From assembly GCA_025210295.1 (NCBI GenBank), contig JAOASC010000016.1:124001-188000 (forward strand): a DNA stretch of 64,000 bases, in the 5' to 3' direction. The notes beneath the pieces were generated by a model, which searched no databases, was not told the DNA's origin, and saw only the letters and a list, made by a program, of their open reading frames with translations. A program made the position numbers and the translations under genes. Positions 54,198 through 61,113 of this stretch are shown piece by piece (the stretch's first letter is position 1; each line of letters opens with the position of its first letter). The DNA comes from Flavobacteriales bacterium. Lineage in GTDB: Bacteria; Bacteroidota; Bacteroidia; Flavobacteriales_D; Parvicellaceae.

Positions 54198-54812
54198 TCA
54201 ATTCTGATGTAATGTTATTAAACGATAACTAAATGGCGTCCATAAACTTGCTTTAACATTGGCTTGCTTTAGGATACTATTCACCCATGAATTACAAGTA
54301 AAAAAACAAGAATAACTTCCTTTAGCTTGGTAAAAAAAATCCGAACTCCCATATCCTTGAATTGGTTTTAGATTACTGGGATTGAAGTAATTTAGTATAT
54401 TTCTTTTTATACTTATTAATTGCTCTTCTGTAATTTGAATTTCTGTCCAATTATTTTGAATTTCATGGTATTTTGTAACATGTAACAGTGTTGGACTCTC
54501 AAGAAACAAAGCGTTAAAAGCTGTTTTGATTTTTAGATTACTAAAAGATGGCGTGTTTAAATAAAAGTCTTTATCCCCCCATCCTATTGCTAGATAGTTA
54601 CAATCGAGGTTAAGAAAATCAAATTCATTATTGGATAAAATCAAGTCTAAATGCACCCCGTTTGTTTTAATGTAAATACTGTTGTCCCTTTTATTTTCAG
54701 AATCAAGGTTTTTTGTATTTACAGTAATGTGTGTAAATAACAATGCAACAACTAAATAGACTACTGGACTTAAAGCGACAGCAAACACTATCCTTTTGAA
54801 TAACTTTTTCAT
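54198..54812 (-). CDS. TIGR02117/DUF2459 family protein
   Basis: A 204-residue protein with an N-terminal membrane anchor (RIVFAVALSPVVYLVVALLF), then IYIKTNGVHLDLIL, YLAIGWGDKDFYLNTP, and TCNSWVNSILKQANVKASLWTPF. These match the TIGR02117 (DUF2459) family, sometimes found by urease genes; there are none here. The conserved H, and the C-N-x-W segment, look like a transglutaminase- or NlpC-like catalytic pair, but that is an inference. It converges on the LRR-YwqG gene with eight bases between stops. Confidence 0.88.
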   Translation of the reverse strand: MKKLFKRIVFAVALSPVVYLVVALLFTHITVNTKNLDSENKRDNSIYIKTNGVHLDLILSNNEFDFLNLDCNYLAIGWGDKDFYLNTPSFSNLKIKTAFNALFLESPTLLHVTKYHEIQNNWTEIQITEEQLISIKRNILNYFNPSNLKPIQGYGSSDFFYQAKGSYSCFFTCNSWVNSILKQANVKASLWTPFSYRLITLHQN

Positions 54813-54884: not shown

Positions 54885-55868
54885 TTATGCTTTGCCTTTT
54901 CTTCTTTTATAAACTACCCAAGCAACAACTAGTGCGAGTATAACAAACCAAACATTTGCCAACTGTACAATTATAAATAATAAACCATTAAACCCATTCA
55001 CTAAACTTTCCCAGAGTTGTGTAAAAAAAGAGGGCTCAAAATCCTTTATATTCAATTCATTTTCTACTAATTCTTTATCTAAAGAGGCTTCTTGATAAAA
55101 TGTTAACTGCACAGTACTGTATTCAACTTCAAAATCTAATTCCATATTTCTAATTAGAGCTGCATCTTTTTGACGTTGTTTTTGCAACATCCTATCGTGC
55201 GCATCTACAACTTTATTCATTTTATCCTTCTGATTTTTTATTGCCTTTGATAATTTTTCATGATATTCGGTCAAACGTTGCTGCTCTAAGTTATTTTTTA
55301 ATTCTCTTAGGCTAATTTCATTAGCTGTAACAATTCGTTCATCTAGAAACTTAACTTTTGGAGCGATCACCTTTAACAATGAATCCAGTTGAGTATTAGG
55401 AATTCTAATCGTCATATCATTGTTTACTCGATACCTAGTAATACGTAAAGAAGAATCTTTACTTACAGCAATTTTCTTAACACTCTCAATGTCACTATAC
55501 AACTTTGTATTGGTTACTATTCCACCTAGATTCACTACCGCATGTTCGAGGTAATGTGTCGTATTTCTTACTTTACATGTTTTAAATCTAATTTGTGCTT
55601 TTCTAATAAAACGTAAGTTGCCATCATTTTCTATACTTGCCGCTAATGAACGAACTCCATCTTGATGGTTCTCGGCAAATATTTCCTGTTCGGCTGCTTG
55701 ACTATTCCCCATAGCAGCATCATCCATTTTCGCTATTTCTTCATAAACAGCCTCTTCCATTTCTGCTTGTGGGGCATACGACTTTGCTTCATATTGATCA
55801 TATTGACTTCCGCATGAAGTAAATCCTAAAATGATAAAAAGTCCGATTGTTTGAATTGTTGTCTTCAT
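54885..55868 (-). CDS. DUF4349 lipoprotein
   Basis: A 327-residue protein from the ATG at 55868 (MKTTIQTIGLFIILGFTSC-GS, a lipobox); the longer TTG-type start is not needed. The mature part begins with an acidic Ala-rich stretch (KSYAPQAEMEEAVYEE), then DUF4349: LRFIRKAQIRFKTCKVRNT, GGIVTNTKLYSD, RIPNTQLDSLLKVI, a long charged coiled coil (about 190-240) and a C-terminal membrane helix (about 300-320) with a basic end. DUF4349 proteins are of unknown function. It has its own upstream promoter-like region and may be regulated apart from the tolC gene before it. Confidence 0.9.
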   Translation of the reverse strand: MKTTIQTIGLFIILGFTSCGSQYDQYEAKSYAPQAEMEEAVYEEIAKMDDAAMGNSQAAEQEIFAENHQDGVRSLAASIENDGNLRFIRKAQIRFKTCKVRNTTHYLEHAVVNLGGIVTNTKLYSDIESVKKIAVSKDSSLRITRYRVNNDMTIRIPNTQLDSLLKVIAPKVKFLDERIVTANEISLRELKNNLEQQRLTEYHEKLSKAIKNQKDKMNKVVDAHDRMLQKQRQKDAALIRNMELDFEVEYSTVQLTFYQEASLDKELVENELNIKDFEPSFFTQLWESLVNGFNGLLFIIVQLANVWFVILALVVAWVVYKRRKGKA

Positions 55869-55895
55869 AATTTTGTGTGTTTTTTGATTACACTC

Positions 55896-55964
55896 CAAAA
55901 CTAAGTACACAACAACGTCAATTCTTGTAAATCACTAGTAAACAGTACTGTAAATCATTTTACA
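55896..55964 (-). promoter_or_regulatory. Promoter and repeat cluster upstream of DUF4349
   Basis: TAGTTTTG on the minus strand (55903-55896) is an exact -7 box, 28 bases before the ATG. Further upstream, TGTAAATCA occurs at 55926-55934 and 55949-55957 (23 bases apart); the second copy is part of the palindrome TGTAAA-TCAT-TTTACA (55949-55964). They lie where an operator or activator site would be. Confidence 0.5.
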
Positions 55965-55998: not shown

Positions 55999-57357
55999 TT
56001 ATAATTTCACCAATTGATACTTCAATTCAGCTTGAGCTAACCAATTTCTAAATTGAACATCTATTAACTTAATTTGAGACTCAATATAATTTTGTTCTCG
56101 AACATTAACCATAAACAAAGATGATTCTCCAATATTAAAAAGTGTTTGTTCAGCTTCAAATATTTGTAAATACATCTCGGTAGATTTTTCTTGAATAAGC
56201 ATTTGATCTTTTGATGATGTTAATTGATTATAAGCAGCTTCCATCTTGTATCGAATCATCGCTTGTTTATTTAAAAGCCCCATTCTTTTTTGCTCTAATT
56301 TGATTCCTGAAAGTTTAGCCGAAGCACGTTCTTTTCGAGTAAAAATTGGGTAGCTTACTTTTGCTCCCCAGTTATAATCCTCAACATTATAGGAAGTATT
56401 TGCTGAAAGCGAGTTATACTTTAACTGGACAGTTGGTTTGAGATATTCTTTCTTTAGCTGTAAATCAATTTTACTAATTTCAACATCATTTTCATACATT
56501 AACACTTCTGGATGTGTTTGAGATAATGTTACAAAATTTAAAGTATCATTCTCTCCTACCTCCATATCCAAGAAAGGTTCTATTGTTGATGCAAGTTCTA
56601 AAGGAACATACCCGTCTTGCCATAAAAAAGTATTGACCCACATTCTCTTATTCTTTTCTGCAACGCTAGCTTGCTCCTGTTTTAAGCTACGATCTTGTAA
56701 TTGGATAGATACCTTAAGTGTATCTAATGCAGGTTTTTCTCCTCTTATAACACTCAATTGAATCGCATTTAATCGCTCTTCAGCATTTGCAACTGCTTGA
56801 CTATAAACTTGAAGCTTTCGATATGCTTTTTGCCATTCAAAATAAGCTTGTGAAGCATCAAAAACTAATTGATTTTGGATAACCTGCTGTTCTAACAAGG
56901 TTGAGTTTTGAATGATTTTAGCTTGTTTTAAATCAGCTCTTCGTTTATCAATAAACAATCCTTTTCCTAAATTAACTGTCACACCTGCATTCCACAGCCC
57001 CTCAGAAGGTGTATAAGATTCTGGGTTTAATAGATAGCCATCGTTTTCATTATAGCCTCCATGGAGACTTACACCAAACCAGGTTGGAATGACTAATCCT
57101 CCATTGATATAGCTATAATACTGCTTTTCTTCAAAATACTTTTGAGAGATATCCCCTTTTAATTTAGGATCAAAACCACCTCTAGCTTTCTTTAACTCTA
57201 ATGCTCCCTTTTCTCCTTCCAATTGAGCAGTATAAACCAAAGGATGATGTTTTTTTACAACAGCAATATAATCTGTATAACTAAAAGTTACAGCAGTATC
57301 CTGTCCGAATAAAGACAAGCCCCCCAATAAAAATATAACGAACAAATAGTTTCTCAT
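55999..57357 (-). CDS. TolC-family outer-membrane channel
   Basis: A 452-residue protein with signal MRNYLFVIFLLGGLSLFGQ and the TolC/OEP helical-barrel pattern: two long coiled-coil repeats and WNAGVTVNLGKGLFI, WGAKVSYPIFTRKERASAKLSG. The final helix (FNIGESSLFMVNVREQNYIESQIKLID) has the family G-x-x-S-x-x-x-V pattern. It should form a channel in the outer membrane with the adaptor encoded just upstream, two bases away. Confidence 0.93.
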   Translation of the reverse strand: MRNYLFVIFLLGGLSLFGQDTAVTFSYTDYIAVVKKHHPLVYTAQLEGEKGALELKKARGGFDPKLKGDISQKYFEEKQYYSYINGGLVIPTWFGVSLHGGYNENDGYLLNPESYTPSEGLWNAGVTVNLGKGLFIDKRRADLKQAKIIQNSTLLEQQVIQNQLVFDASQAYFEWQKAYRKLQVYSQAVANAEERLNAIQLSVIRGEKPALDTLKVSIQLQDRSLKQEQASVAEKNKRMWVNTFLWQDGYVPLELASTIEPFLDMEVGENDTLNFVTLSQTHPEVLMYENDVEISKIDLQLKKEYLKPTVQLKYNSLSANTSYNVEDYNWGAKVSYPIFTRKERASAKLSGIKLEQKRMGLLNKQAMIRYKMEAAYNQLTSSKDQMLIQEKSTEMYLQIFEAEQTLFNIGESSLFMVNVREQNYIESQIKLIDVQFRNWLAQAELKYQLVKL

Positions 57358-57359
57358 TC

Positions 57360-58715
57360 TTACTTCTTTTTAAGGTTTTTTGCTTCTTCTTCTTTTACCT
57401 CATAATATTCAGGAGGGAAACCGTTAATGTTTCGCCATAACTCATACCAAACTGGAACATCTTTTAACAACATTAAATTGGTTGCCCCAGAACCAAACCT
57501 CAAGTCATCAGGCCAGCAGTGATCTGTAGAATCTTCCCTAACTAAAACTCTATACTTACCATTGGCACTTATAAATTGGTCAATTGCATATATTTTCCCT
57601 TGGAATGTACCATAACTTGCACTTGGCCATCCAGAAAAGACGATAGCTGGCCAACCATCAAACTGAATATTCACGTGTTCTCCTTTTTTAATTAAAGGAA
57701 GATCAATAGGTTTTACGTATAACTCAACTGCTAAATCATAATGCTTTGGCATCAATGTTAGAATTTGTTGCCCCTCTTTAATCACTTCTCCTATTCCACT
57801 GATAAAAGTTTTGGTGATATAACCATCTTGTGGTGCGGTAATAAAATACAATCCGTTTCTAAACTGATAGTTACTGTATTGATTCTTTAGTTTATTGATA
57901 TTGGTTTCCGTATCTAGTTTTCGAGAAACTGTACTAAATCGTTCTGATTCAATTTTATTATAGTCTGATTGAAACTTTACTTCAATATTTGACAACTCTA
58001 CTTTTAAATTTAATACTTCATTTTGGCTGTTCAGGTATTTATTTTTAGCTGCTAATTCATACGATTTAGTCTCCTGTTTCTTTACCCTCCTTTTTTCTAA
58101 GTCGATTTTTGATTTTAAACCTATTGCATATAAACTATCAGCTCTATCATACTGTGCACTAGCAGTAGTATAATTTAACTTCGCCGACTCAAAATTAATG
58201 CTGTCATTTTGTACTTTCAAAATAGCTTGTCCTAACTTGTTTTTAGCCTGAGTTAGTTTAAGGTTCATCTGCTTTTGAAGCAAGTCTAATTGATTGGTTT
58301 GAATAGCTATTTTATCTCCATACGCTTTTACAGACTCTTCTTTTAACTCAATTTGATTTTTAGTTCGCTGTAGCAATTCATCATCAAAATAAGCATCTTT
58401 AATTTCCGATATTTTTAAGATAGTATCTCCTTTATTCACATAATCCCCCTCTTTAACATACCAGTTATCTATTCGACCTCCTATTATCGAATTTAGGCTT
58501 TGTGGACGTTGGTCAGGTTTCAACGTTGTGATATATCCTTCTGAACGAACATTTTGTGTCCACGGTAAAAATAAAACGACAAAACTTATCACTGTAAATC
58601 CAATAATTATTTTTCGTAACACTCTACTCGAATGCTTTTTTTCGACCTCACTTAATGTTCTATAAGCTTTGGGTAAAATATATTTTGAAACACTATTTTC
58701 TGAAATGTTTAACAT
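57360..58715 (-). CDS. HlyD-family membrane-fusion protein
   Basis: A 451-residue inner-membrane-anchored adaptor. One N-terminal helix (KIIIGFTVISFVVLFLPW), then lipoyl-like half motif GGRIDNWYVKEGDYVNKGDTILKI, a long coiled hairpin (about 115-285), the matching lipoyl half (FITAPQDGYITKTFISGIGEVIKEGQQILT) and a beta-barrel. It links the ABC subunit to TolC. It lies two bases after the ABC gene stop and two bases before the TolC start, so all three are translated from one mRNA. Confidence 0.94.
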   Translation of the reverse strand: MLNISENSVSKYILPKAYRTLSEVEKKHSSRVLRKIIIGFTVISFVVLFLPWTQNVRSEGYITTLKPDQRPQSLNSIIGGRIDNWYVKEGDYVNKGDTILKISEIKDAYFDDELLQRTKNQIELKEESVKAYGDKIAIQTNQLDLLQKQMNLKLTQAKNKLGQAILKVQNDSINFESAKLNYTTASAQYDRADSLYAIGLKSKIDLEKRRVKKQETKSYELAAKNKYLNSQNEVLNLKVELSNIEVKFQSDYNKIESERFSTVSRKLDTETNINKLKNQYSNYQFRNGLYFITAPQDGYITKTFISGIGEVIKEGQQILTLMPKHYDLAVELYVKPIDLPLIKKGEHVNIQFDGWPAIVFSGWPSASYGTFQGKIYAIDQFISANGKYRVLVREDSTDHCWPDDLRFGSGATNLMLLKDVPVWYELWRNINGFPPEYYEVKEEEAKNLKKK

Positions 58716-58717
58716 AA

Positions 58718-60385
58718 TTAAACGATTTTACGTAATGATTGATTTTCAACTAAAACTACCTGATTCACTTTGTCTCTCAAATAGCCATCTCTTGAAGCAA
58801 TAACCAGCGTCCAAGGATTAGACTTATCTGTAAGGAACTCCATTATTTGCTTACGTTCCTCTCCTACTAATGAAGAGAAAACATCTTTAACCAATAATAA
58901 CTTAGGTTTATCTGCTATACTTCTTGCTAAAATTAACTTGTCGACAATACCTTTTGAGAATTGTTTTCCTTGAGGGAAAATCTTAGTGTCATATCCTTTA
59001 TCTAAAGATTTAATGAATGAACTCAAGCCTAACTTTTCGATTGCCCATTGAACATTTTCAAAAGTAGCACTAGGCCTACCCATCGTAATGTTTTCTAAAA
59101 GAGTCCCCTCAAACAACAACTCATCCATTAGACAATCTCCTATAACAGACCTTAAATATTGTGGATTATAGTTAGAAATTGGTAAATTATTGATAACAAC
59201 AGTTCCTTTTTTTACTTTATAAAGTCCAGCTAGCAAATACAATAAAGTCGTTTTACCTGAATCACTGCTTCCAACTATTAACACACTTTCACTAGAATCA
59301 ATTTCAAGGTTAACATTGGAGAAGATATTGTTTTCTTGACCAGGATATCCAAAATCAACATTTTTAAACTCTAATGACAAACCTTTATCTAGATTACAGG
59401 TTTCGATTTCTATTCCTTCACAACGCTCTATTTCAAGATCAGATACCTGCCCTACTTTTTCTAATGCAGTGAGTACGTCATAAATTGTCTCTAAACTTAA
59501 AATTAATTTTTCTACAGCTCCTAATACTAAAAGAATAATAATTTCAGCAGCGACGAATTGTCCTAAGTTCATTTGTTGCTCCATCACCAAAATACTTCCT
59601 ACCACTAATAATCCTGACGTCACCAAAACCTTGAAGACTACCATCAAGATGTATTGGTATTTTAAAATGGTAAAGTGGTTTTCTCTTGCTTCGATGTACT
59701 CTCCAACATATTTGTCGGTTCTTAACATTGGAAGTTCCGTATTACCAGCTAATTTAAAACTGATACTTGTTCTGGCCAATTCCTCTAACCAATGTGCAAT
59801 ATTGTATTTATGTTTCGATTCTTCCAAACTTGTATCCAATCCTCTTTTAGACGTTACCTTAAAAATTGAGTACACTAAAACAATTAAAATCAAGCTAAAA
59901 ACAATAAAAAATGGATGATAAAGAGATAACAGTAGCAATCCAAATAAAGTTTGTACTGACGCTGTTGAAAAATCAATCAATACCTTAGACAATCCCTTTT
60001 GTACTGAAACTACATCAAAGAAACGGTTCATTAATTCTGGAGCATATTGTTTAAATAAAGCTTCCAATTTAATTTTGGGAATTCGAAAAGCAAATTCAAA
60101 TGCTGCTCTTGTAAATATTTTCTGTTGTAAATATTCTGATATTCTAAGTTGTTGGATTTGTAGGATACCTGATATGACTACTCCCAAGATCACTAATGTA
60201 ACCAATACAATCCAAGATGTACTCATTTTTCCTCCTTGTATCAAGTTGATGATCGATTGGATACCTATTGGCAATGATAAATTGACAAGTCCCAAAAAGA
60301 ATGCATAGATATATACATTTCTAATTTCTACCTTATCGGGTTTAATCAATAACCAAAAACGGTTTACTGGACTTAATTGACTCAT
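58718..60385 (-). CDS. ABC transporter, membrane domain fused to a degenerate nucleotide-binding domain
   Basis: A 555-residue protein, six-helix membrane domain (about 20-300) plus nucleotide-binding domain (about 335-555), without peptidase domain. Walker A is intact (G372-S-S-D-S-G-K378-T-T). Other motifs are altered: Q-loop Gln reads M420 (GDCLMDE), signature LSGGQ reads FSKGI (476-480), Walker B Asp and catalytic Glu read K500-D501 (LLLVKDVFSSL), D-loop Asp reads V507, and the switch His reads S531. A normal homodimer cannot hydrolyse ATP in the usual way. It pairs with HlyD and TolC in a type I secretion-like operon and follows TetR by four bases. Confidence 0.92.
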   Translation of the reverse strand: MSQLSPVNRFWLLIKPDKVEIRNVYIYAFFLGLVNLSLPIGIQSIINLIQGGKMSTSWIVLVTLVILGVVISGILQIQQLRISEYLQQKIFTRAAFEFAFRIPKIKLEALFKQYAPELMNRFFDVVSVQKGLSKVLIDFSTASVQTLFGLLLLSLYHPFFIVFSLILIVLVYSIFKVTSKRGLDTSLEESKHKYNIAHWLEELARTSISFKLAGNTELPMLRTDKYVGEYIEARENHFTILKYQYILMVVFKVLVTSGLLVVGSILVMEQQMNLGQFVAAEIIILLVLGAVEKLILSLETIYDVLTALEKVGQVSDLEIERCEGIEIETCNLDKGLSLEFKNVDFGYPGQENNIFSNVNLEIDSSESVLIVGSSDSGKTTLLYLLAGLYKVKKGTVVINNLPISNYNPQYLRSVIGDCLMDELLFEGTLLENITMGRPSATFENVQWAIEKLGLSSFIKSLDKGYDTKIFPQGKQFSKGIVDKLILARSIADKPKLLLVKDVFSSLVGEERKQIMEFLTDKSNPWTLVIASRDGYLRDKVNQVVLVENQSLRKIV

Positions 60386-60389
60386 GTTA

Positions 60390-61064
60390 TTATTTCGTAA
60401 TTTCTTTAATGACTAATTCTTTATAAAATGTTGTTACTGCATCTTCACCTTCAACTACATCTGTTAAACGTGGTAAATGTTCTGCAAAGAAGCGTTGATG
60501 ATGCGCTCCTTCTATTACTGTTGACACCAACATATGGGGGTATTTAAACGCTGAGTTGATTTCTAAAATAATTGATGAAACTCTAGCTACAACGTCTTTA
60601 TATTTTAAAAAATATCCCAATTCATTATCCTTATCTACCGCCTTATTTAAGTATGCTTTTGAGGACTCGCTAATTACAATTCTATTTAATAAAACTTCAT
60701 TGATTTGCGAAAATGTAGAATCCTCTTTAATCTCTTCTGTTAACACATTAATTGCTCTCTCCAGACGTTGAATTGGGCAATCAACATTAGTTAATCTTAG
60801 CAGCAAACGATATTCTTGCCATCCCCAATACCAGTGCACTAAATAGATCAACACATGATGTTTACTCTCAAAATACCGATAAATTGATGCTTCTGTTGAA
60901 GTAATGTGCTTTGCTAACTTTTTAAAGGTGAATTCCTCAAAGCCAAGCTGTTCAATTAATTCAATACTCCCTCCAATAATCTTTTTTCCTAATGTGGAAG
61001 AATTAGGATTTTTGAGGTACACATTCTCATTGACGTTAATACTTAAATTAGAAAGCCGATCCAT
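60390..61064 (-). CDS. TetR/AcrR-family regulator of the ABC-HlyD-TolC operon
   Basis: A 224-residue regulator from the ATG at 61064 (MDRLSNLSINVNENV); an upstream TTG-type start is not needed. The N-terminal helix-turn-helix is GFEEFTFKKLAKHITSTEASIYRYFESKHHVL. The ligand domain is larger than average, with helix pairs and an EGAHHQRFF histidine cluster in the C-terminal half. First gene of the operon; it should repress its own promoter, whose spacer holds a palindrome. Confidence 0.9.
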   Translation of the reverse strand: MDRLSNLSINVNENVYLKNPNSSTLGKKIIGGSIELIEQLGFEEFTFKKLAKHITSTEASIYRYFESKHHVLIYLVHWYWGWQEYRLLLRLTNVDCPIQRLERAINVLTEEIKEDSTFSQINEVLLNRIVISESSKAYLNKAVDKDNELGYFLKYKDVVARVSSIILEINSAFKYPHMLVSTVIEGAHHQRFFAEHLPRLTDVVEGEDAVTTFYKELVIKEITK

Positions 61065-61082
61065 TGTTAATAATTTTGGACG

Positions 61083-61113
61083 CAAAAATAATAGTATTAC
61101 TATCATAAACAAA
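61083..61113 (-). promoter_or_regulatory. Promoter and operator of tetR-ABC operon
   Basis: On the minus strand, -33 TTTG (61113-61110) and -7 TATTTTTG (61090-61083) are separated by 19 bases. The palindrome ATAGTA-T-TACTAT (61091-61103) lies inside the spacer. A direct repeat, CTATCATAAA, occurs at 61100-61109 and 61130-61139. The site fits an autorepressed TetR promoter. Confidence 0.75.

Follow-up and report, generated by a model that had tools for sequence, protein, structure and literature searches.

ATP hydrolysis is the defining property of ABC exporters. In the ABC dimer, each ATP site is composed of the Walker A, Walker B and His residues of one nucleotide-binding domain (NBD) together with the signature of the other. 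Where one subunit of a known heterodimer has a degraded signature, that of its partner is intact. The binding of ATP without hydrolysis at one of the sites is an established idea (PMC7756269). LmrA and MsbA truncated of their NBDs have been found to carry out proton-coupled transport in vitro; LmrA requires residue E314 of TM6 for this, and its current is started by the binding of ATP and not by its hydrolysis (PMC2704374, PMC4979069, PMC6155054). In the haemolysin type I secretion system, three HlyB dimers are reported to be associated with six HlyD, a 6:6 ratio (PMC11026475).

The window analysed here, that is, the whole stretch of 64,000 nucleotides of a Flavobacteriales bacterium, carries on its minus strand (as do all features described below) a tight operon of four genes in the order TetR-ABC-HlyD-TolC. 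Its first gene encodes a TetR-type regulator (60390..61112; Pfam TetR_N), the start codon of which may lie further in. This is followed by the gene for an ABC exporter-like protein of 555 amino acids with a degenerate NBD (58718..60385), a HlyD-type periplasmic adaptor of 451 amino acids (57360..58715; Pfam HlyD_3) and a TolC-type outer membrane factor of 452 amino acids (55999..57357; Pfam OEP), the latter two being full-length, as the initial annotation had described them. Genes for a DUF4349 protein (54885-55910) and a DUF2459 protein (54198-54812) occur on the same strand 3' of the operon, neither of which is often found beside related operons. In a survey of family neighbourhoods, HlyD was found immediately 3' of the ABC gene at all 74 of 74 loci, TolC followed HlyD at 69 of the 69 loci having enough sequence, and TetR was immediately 5' of the ABC gene at 54 of 71 such loci. 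Among ORFs of at least 90 amino acids within about 8 kb, no recurrent cargo gene (RTX protein or double-Gly peptide) was found, the recurring neighbours being TetR, HlyD and TolC.

The ABC gene is an intact ORF whose product was matched by both Pfam ABC_membrane and ABC_tran. An AlphaFold2 model (pLDDT 86.6) gave a complete type I exporter half with a transmembrane domain (TMD) of six long helices, assigned by DSSP to residues 6-315 (59441..60370), and an NBD at residues 336-553 (58727..59380; Pfam ABC_tran 356-499). The best structural matches of this model were PCAT1, MsbA, TM287/288, TmrAB and HlyB (Foldseek and VIA-align; TM-score about 0.85, VIA Z 27-29), so that Pfam, the model and both structural comparisons point to the six-helix membrane domain plus NBD of the ABC exporter fold. 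With the curated NCBIfam models (HlyB, PrtD, LssB, NHLM) the protein scored far under every cut-off, the best score being 175.8 against 853.3 bits. Judged on its fold and operon partners, including the adjoining HlyD and TolC genes expected of type I secretion, the window protein groups with the type I secretion class of ABC exporters.

The ATPase motifs were examined by alignment to canonical exporters from the same genomes as the family members. The Walker A motif GSSDSGKTT (residues 372-380; 59246..59272) is intact, with G372, G377 and K378 all present. The remaining motifs are altered, with M420 in place of the Q-loop Gln (59126..59128), FSKGI at the position of the LSGGQ signature (residues 476-480; 58946..58960), K500 and D501 for the Walker B Asp and catalytic Glu (58883..58888), V507 for the D-loop Asp (58865..58867) and R532 for the switch His (58790..58792). 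The alignment thus bore out the normal Walker A and the first five changes reported in the initial annotation. The sixth, loss of the switch His, also held, but S531 had been named as its replacement, which is a shift of one register; S531 aligns to the residue before the His, a position that is A or S in canonical exporters and S in deep relatives reading 'SHD'. On rechecking frame and register, a single intact frame of 555 amino acids was found in which the motifs stay abnormal and only the position of the His is shifted. The other full-length exporters inspected in the genome of the window are canonical. Judged on the catalytic features that define an ABC ATPase, the protein does not qualify as one.

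This pattern is common to all ten of ten orthologues of the window's own family (50-76% identity), and it had been suspected that related flavobacterial operons would share it. They do, and the pattern reaches through the class Bacteroidia and beyond. Homologues were aligned and scored for the motifs, and among 170 full-length Bacteroidia members the Walker A Lys is present in 162, the Q-loop Gln in 6, an LSGGQ-type signature in none, the Walker B Asp in 13, the catalytic Glu in 12, the D-loop Asp in 66 and the switch His in 1. In 134/170, Walker A is intact and the five further motifs tested are all lost. Tyr or Phe occupies the A-loop position in 130/170, and the commonest pair at positions 500-501 is 'ED' (68/170), with the replacement pairs at Walker B varying among subclades (KD, ED, EN, DD). 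The canonical exporters of the same genomes have every motif in 21/21, apart from the catalytic Glu, found in 17/21 and replaced by Asp in the other four. Loss of every hydrolysis motif is therefore coherent across the family. The possibility of a catalytically weak family, raised in the initial annotation, understates the extent to which hydrolysis motifs have been lost. The unusual ATP-binding switch proposed alongside it is compatible with the full-length members, in which Walker A and the A-loop aromatic are conserved and the hydrolysis motifs are not.

Of the 399 genomes that represent the order, 189 contain an orthologue at E<1e-45, usually as a single copy. At a looser threshold, which also catches some canonical exporters, there were matches in 186/346 genomes of the class and 95/345 genomes of the phylum sample. 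In a deep clade belonging to other classes of the phylum (L237-L243, L247), Walker A and the Asp-Glu of Walker B are retained and the His mostly so, with the Q-loop Gln already gone and the standard signature mostly gone. At the other end, five proteins (L018, L207, L209, L219, L245) have lost Walker A as well while keeping an NBD-sized domain.

A number of other features were observed among the members. Ten proteins of about 690-830 amino acids (L233, L234, L235, L236, L246, L237, L240, L241, L243 and L247) have an N-terminal extension before the membrane domain, which could be a C39-like domain; no Pfam family matched the extension of L233 and L237 (proteins of 730-770 amino acids). Genome G412 has two copies of the operon (L233, L234), with ABC proteins of about 730 amino acids and both NBDs degenerate. 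At L203 (G081 C237:683-2207) and L217 (G198 C204:2465-4083) the membrane domain and degenerate NBD occur in two successive ORFs, which could reflect a natural split, a frameshift or an assembly error. Putative family members also occur on plasmid or large-replicon records (NZ_CP081938.1, NZ_CP081930.1, NZ_CP081932.1 and NZ_CP072187.1 of Riemerella anatipestifer, NZ_AP025306.1 and two Persicobacter records) and, where annotated, carry the name 'ABC transporter ATP-binding protein'. One protein from a record labelled as Saccharospirillaceae (Pseudomonadota; L064, CATLPG010000040.1) nests among Flavobacteriales proteins, which is likely a metagenome binning error.

Some relatives have no NBD at all. 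Nine genomes, including one that consists of a single contig of 7.0 Mb, have a TMD-only orthologue of 332-339 amino acids, in each case with an intact HlyD gene directly next and then TolC where the locus extends far enough. Of these proteins, the three tested with Pfam matched ABC_membrane and not ABC_tran. In a further 8 of 295 class genomes, the TMD is fused to HlyD in one frame of 744-781 amino acids with no NBD. The model of one such fusion is topologically consistent, with six TM helices and a gap of 26 residues followed by the HlyD TM helix, hairpin and barrels, the adaptor half having EmrA as its best match. The transmembrane domain is conserved across all grades of the family. Partial matches at contig ends or in split ORFs (G608, G198, G081, G236 and others) were excluded from this set; an assembly break as the cause of the missing NBD was ruled out, as the frame is complete and HlyD follows in all nine TMD-only and all eight fused cases. 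The nine TMD-only genomes and two fusion genomes were also searched for a detached NBD, with that of the sister protein L236 as query. This gave no close relative, the strongest matches sitting in ordinary full-length exporters at about 21-31% identity. On these searches, the NBD was deleted in these lineages and not moved elsewhere.

Phylogenetic analysis was conducted using quick trees with SH-aLRT support, for which the deep clade was taken as outgroup, an assumption made as the canonical exporters are too divergent (branches of about 10). The TMD-only proteins form one clade adjoining L236, which has a degenerate NBD (SH-aLRT 98-99), and the fusion proteins form a separate clade adjoining L207/L209, where Walker A is lost (SH-aLRT 85-93). 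A single clade for both NBD-less groups was rejected on TMD plus HlyD (p-AU 5e-7), whereas the TMD sequences alone did not reject a single loss (p 0.128). On the trees with TMD plus HlyD, the NBD was lost altogether twice, independently, with the rest of the operon kept. The retention of naturally NBD-less relatives with their HlyD and TolC suggests that the membrane domain is sufficient without an NBD.

The two domains also differ in their conservation. Among 133 degenerate members the mean pairwise identity is 62% for the TMD and 39% for the NBD, with the TMD higher in all 8778 of 8778 pairs. In canonical exporters this is reversed (TMD 33%, NBD 52%), the TMD being higher in 8% of 114 pairs. 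Nonetheless, the dN/dS of the degenerate NBD is 0.02-0.09 (pairs with dS below 1), and it is therefore not drifting freely or simply decaying; G372, G377 and K378 rank among its ten most conserved positions. The second intracellular loop (ICL2; residues 196-226; 59708..59800) is predicted from the conservation comparison to be the NBD-docking element, a role that the known exporter fold would also assign to it. Its match to consensus is 0.82 in proteins with an NBD, 0.33 in TMD-only proteins and 0.10 in fused proteins, a loss exceeding that of other parts of the membrane domain. Given the purifying selection, the conservation of Walker A and the A-loop, and the keeping of ICL2 only where there is an NBD, the surviving NBD is probably docked and useful. 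In its simplest role, it is probably a non-hydrolysing element which at most binds ATP, comparable to the 'permanent glue' role proposed for degenerate sites (PMC7756269).

Two other explanations of the altered motifs bear on these data. That all motifs are changed simultaneously might be expected of a pseudogene, an assembly error or a misread frame. The chance of this is practically negligible, with an intact ORF in about 170 full-length relatives, a conserved operon and dN/dS far below 1, and a pseudogene or frameshift was ruled out on these grounds. It could also be proposed that the NBD hydrolyses ATP via a rearranged site, with a Glu-Asp order at Walker B and Lys/Arg in the signature; the prevalence of the 'ED' pair, the conserved Walker A and A-loop aromatics and the purifying selection on the NBD would be consistent with this. 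However, the accessory catalytic residues are all gone, the replacements differ from one subclade to another, the NBD has been deleted twice and Walker A has been lost several times, making such a site very improbable.

The initial annotation also proposed a subunit working with a second ATPase. Canonical exporters, which could be the hydrolysing partner encoded elsewhere, are present in the same genomes, and heterodimeric exporters with one degenerate site are common (PMC7756269). This reading is disfavoured, and we regard it as improbable. No co-encoded partner NBD subunit recurs in the operons of the family. As each site combines the Walker A/B/His and the signature of opposite NBDs, and as this one subunit lacks its signature, Walker B and His together, a mixed dimer would be left without a complete site whatever the partner. 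In the NBD-less relatives, moreover, no close relative of the domain was found and the ICL2 docking loop is gone; in two lineages the domain has been deleted without relocation.

The candidate residue for an alternative energy source is E281 in TM6 (59543..59545). It is Glu in 165/165 sampled members of every grade, the TMD-only and fused proteins included, and in 178/178 of a larger full-length set. Canonical exporters have Ile or Gln at this position, and in the ComA alignment Asn is found opposite it. E281 lies about eight residues into TM6 and has the most hydrophobic setting among the conserved charges (hydropathy 2.4); the other invariant charged residues of the membrane domain are K130, K193 and K310. 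By analogy with LmrA and MsbA, the family may be ion-coupled through E281. The presence of this Glu even in the deep clade with its retained Walker B speaks against such coupling, and the role of the residue could instead be in substrate binding or structural.

It is also conceivable that the membrane domain acts as an anchor, gate or assembly platform for the HlyD-TolC conduit, with substrates entering from the periplasm or moving down their own gradient. The 1:1 fusion of membrane domain and HlyD is in keeping with this, agreeing with the 6:6 HlyB:HlyD ratio of the haemolysin system (PMC11026475), as are the dispensability of the NBD in two lineages and the absence of a linked cargo gene among those searched for. 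Against this, a mean TMD identity of 62% and the invariant E281, K130, K193 and K310 exceed the needs of a passive anchor, and the predicted structure retains the full six-helix exporter fold. A platform role is a credible possibility, though an unlikely one.

The reading that we favour, with a probability of roughly 55%, is that the operon encodes a tripartite exporter independent of ATP hydrolysis, in which the NBD is at most ATP-binding and ion coupling via E281 is preferred. The working part would be the inner-membrane ABC-type membrane domain together with the HlyD adaptor and TolC channel. The NBD of the window protein would be a module that does not hydrolyse ATP but probably binds it, and that remains docked onto the membrane domain. 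With ATP hydrolysis presumably absent, the membrane domain would transport or gate with power from elsewhere, most likely an ion gradient through E281, and the binding of ATP, where retained, would set or gate its conformation. For such ATP-independent export, the LmrA/MsbA precedent should be read with caution, as an analogy drawn from engineered truncations. More tentatively, and at somewhat less than even odds, the family may represent a natural, phylum-wide lineage of ABC exporters that switched from ATP-driven to ATP-independent (ion-coupled) export, through decay of the motifs, with the ATP-binding shell serving temporarily as a lid or switch before at least two deletions of the NBD, in one of which the membrane domain was welded to HlyD.

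No published description of this degenerate-NBD family was found in the open-access literature, a scope that leaves out most subscription journals and all bioRxiv preprints. What appears to be new, from the genomic comparison, is the later complete loss of the ATPase domain, twice. The ion-coupled working of ABC membrane domains has so far rested on engineered LmrA and MsbA truncations, and evolution appears to have run the NBD-removal experiment twice, in many living species. Within the same operon there is a graded series, from an ATPase still partly intact, via a domain that presumably binds ATP but is catalytically dead, to the lack of any ATPase. This natural series allows the question of ion coupling to be addressed directly with natural proteins. 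In addition, many Bacteroidota genes annotated as 'ABC transporter ATP-binding protein' are probably not ATPases.

Compared with known systems, the family resembles HlyB, PCAT1, ComA and PrtD in fold (Foldseek E 3e-27 to PCAT1, TM-score about 0.85; VIA Z 29 to HlyB), in sequence, where the TMD is weakly similar to ComA and to a structure of the HlyB subfamily, and in having the HlyD and TolC operon partners of type I secretion and peptidase-containing exporters. It differs from them in the loss of the hydrolysis motifs, its low NCBIfam scores, the failure to find a linked cargo gene and the lack of an NBD in some members. Altered catalytic motifs are shared with TM287/288, TmrAB, BmrCD, TAP and ABCC proteins, but these keep one complete site per dimer, whereas in a dimer of the family protein both would be incomplete, and the operon has no partner. 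A membrane domain without an NBD is shared with LmrA-MD and MsbA-MD, and E314 in TM6 of LmrA is, like E281, acidic, a residue comparable in kind. However, those are laboratory truncations of ATP-driven pumps, whereas the NBD losses of the family are natural, fixed and repeated. Finally, EmrAB-TolC is likewise built on a HlyD-type adaptor and TolC and is driven by protons, without ATP; its inner-membrane part is an MFS protein, whereas that of the family is an ABC membrane domain.
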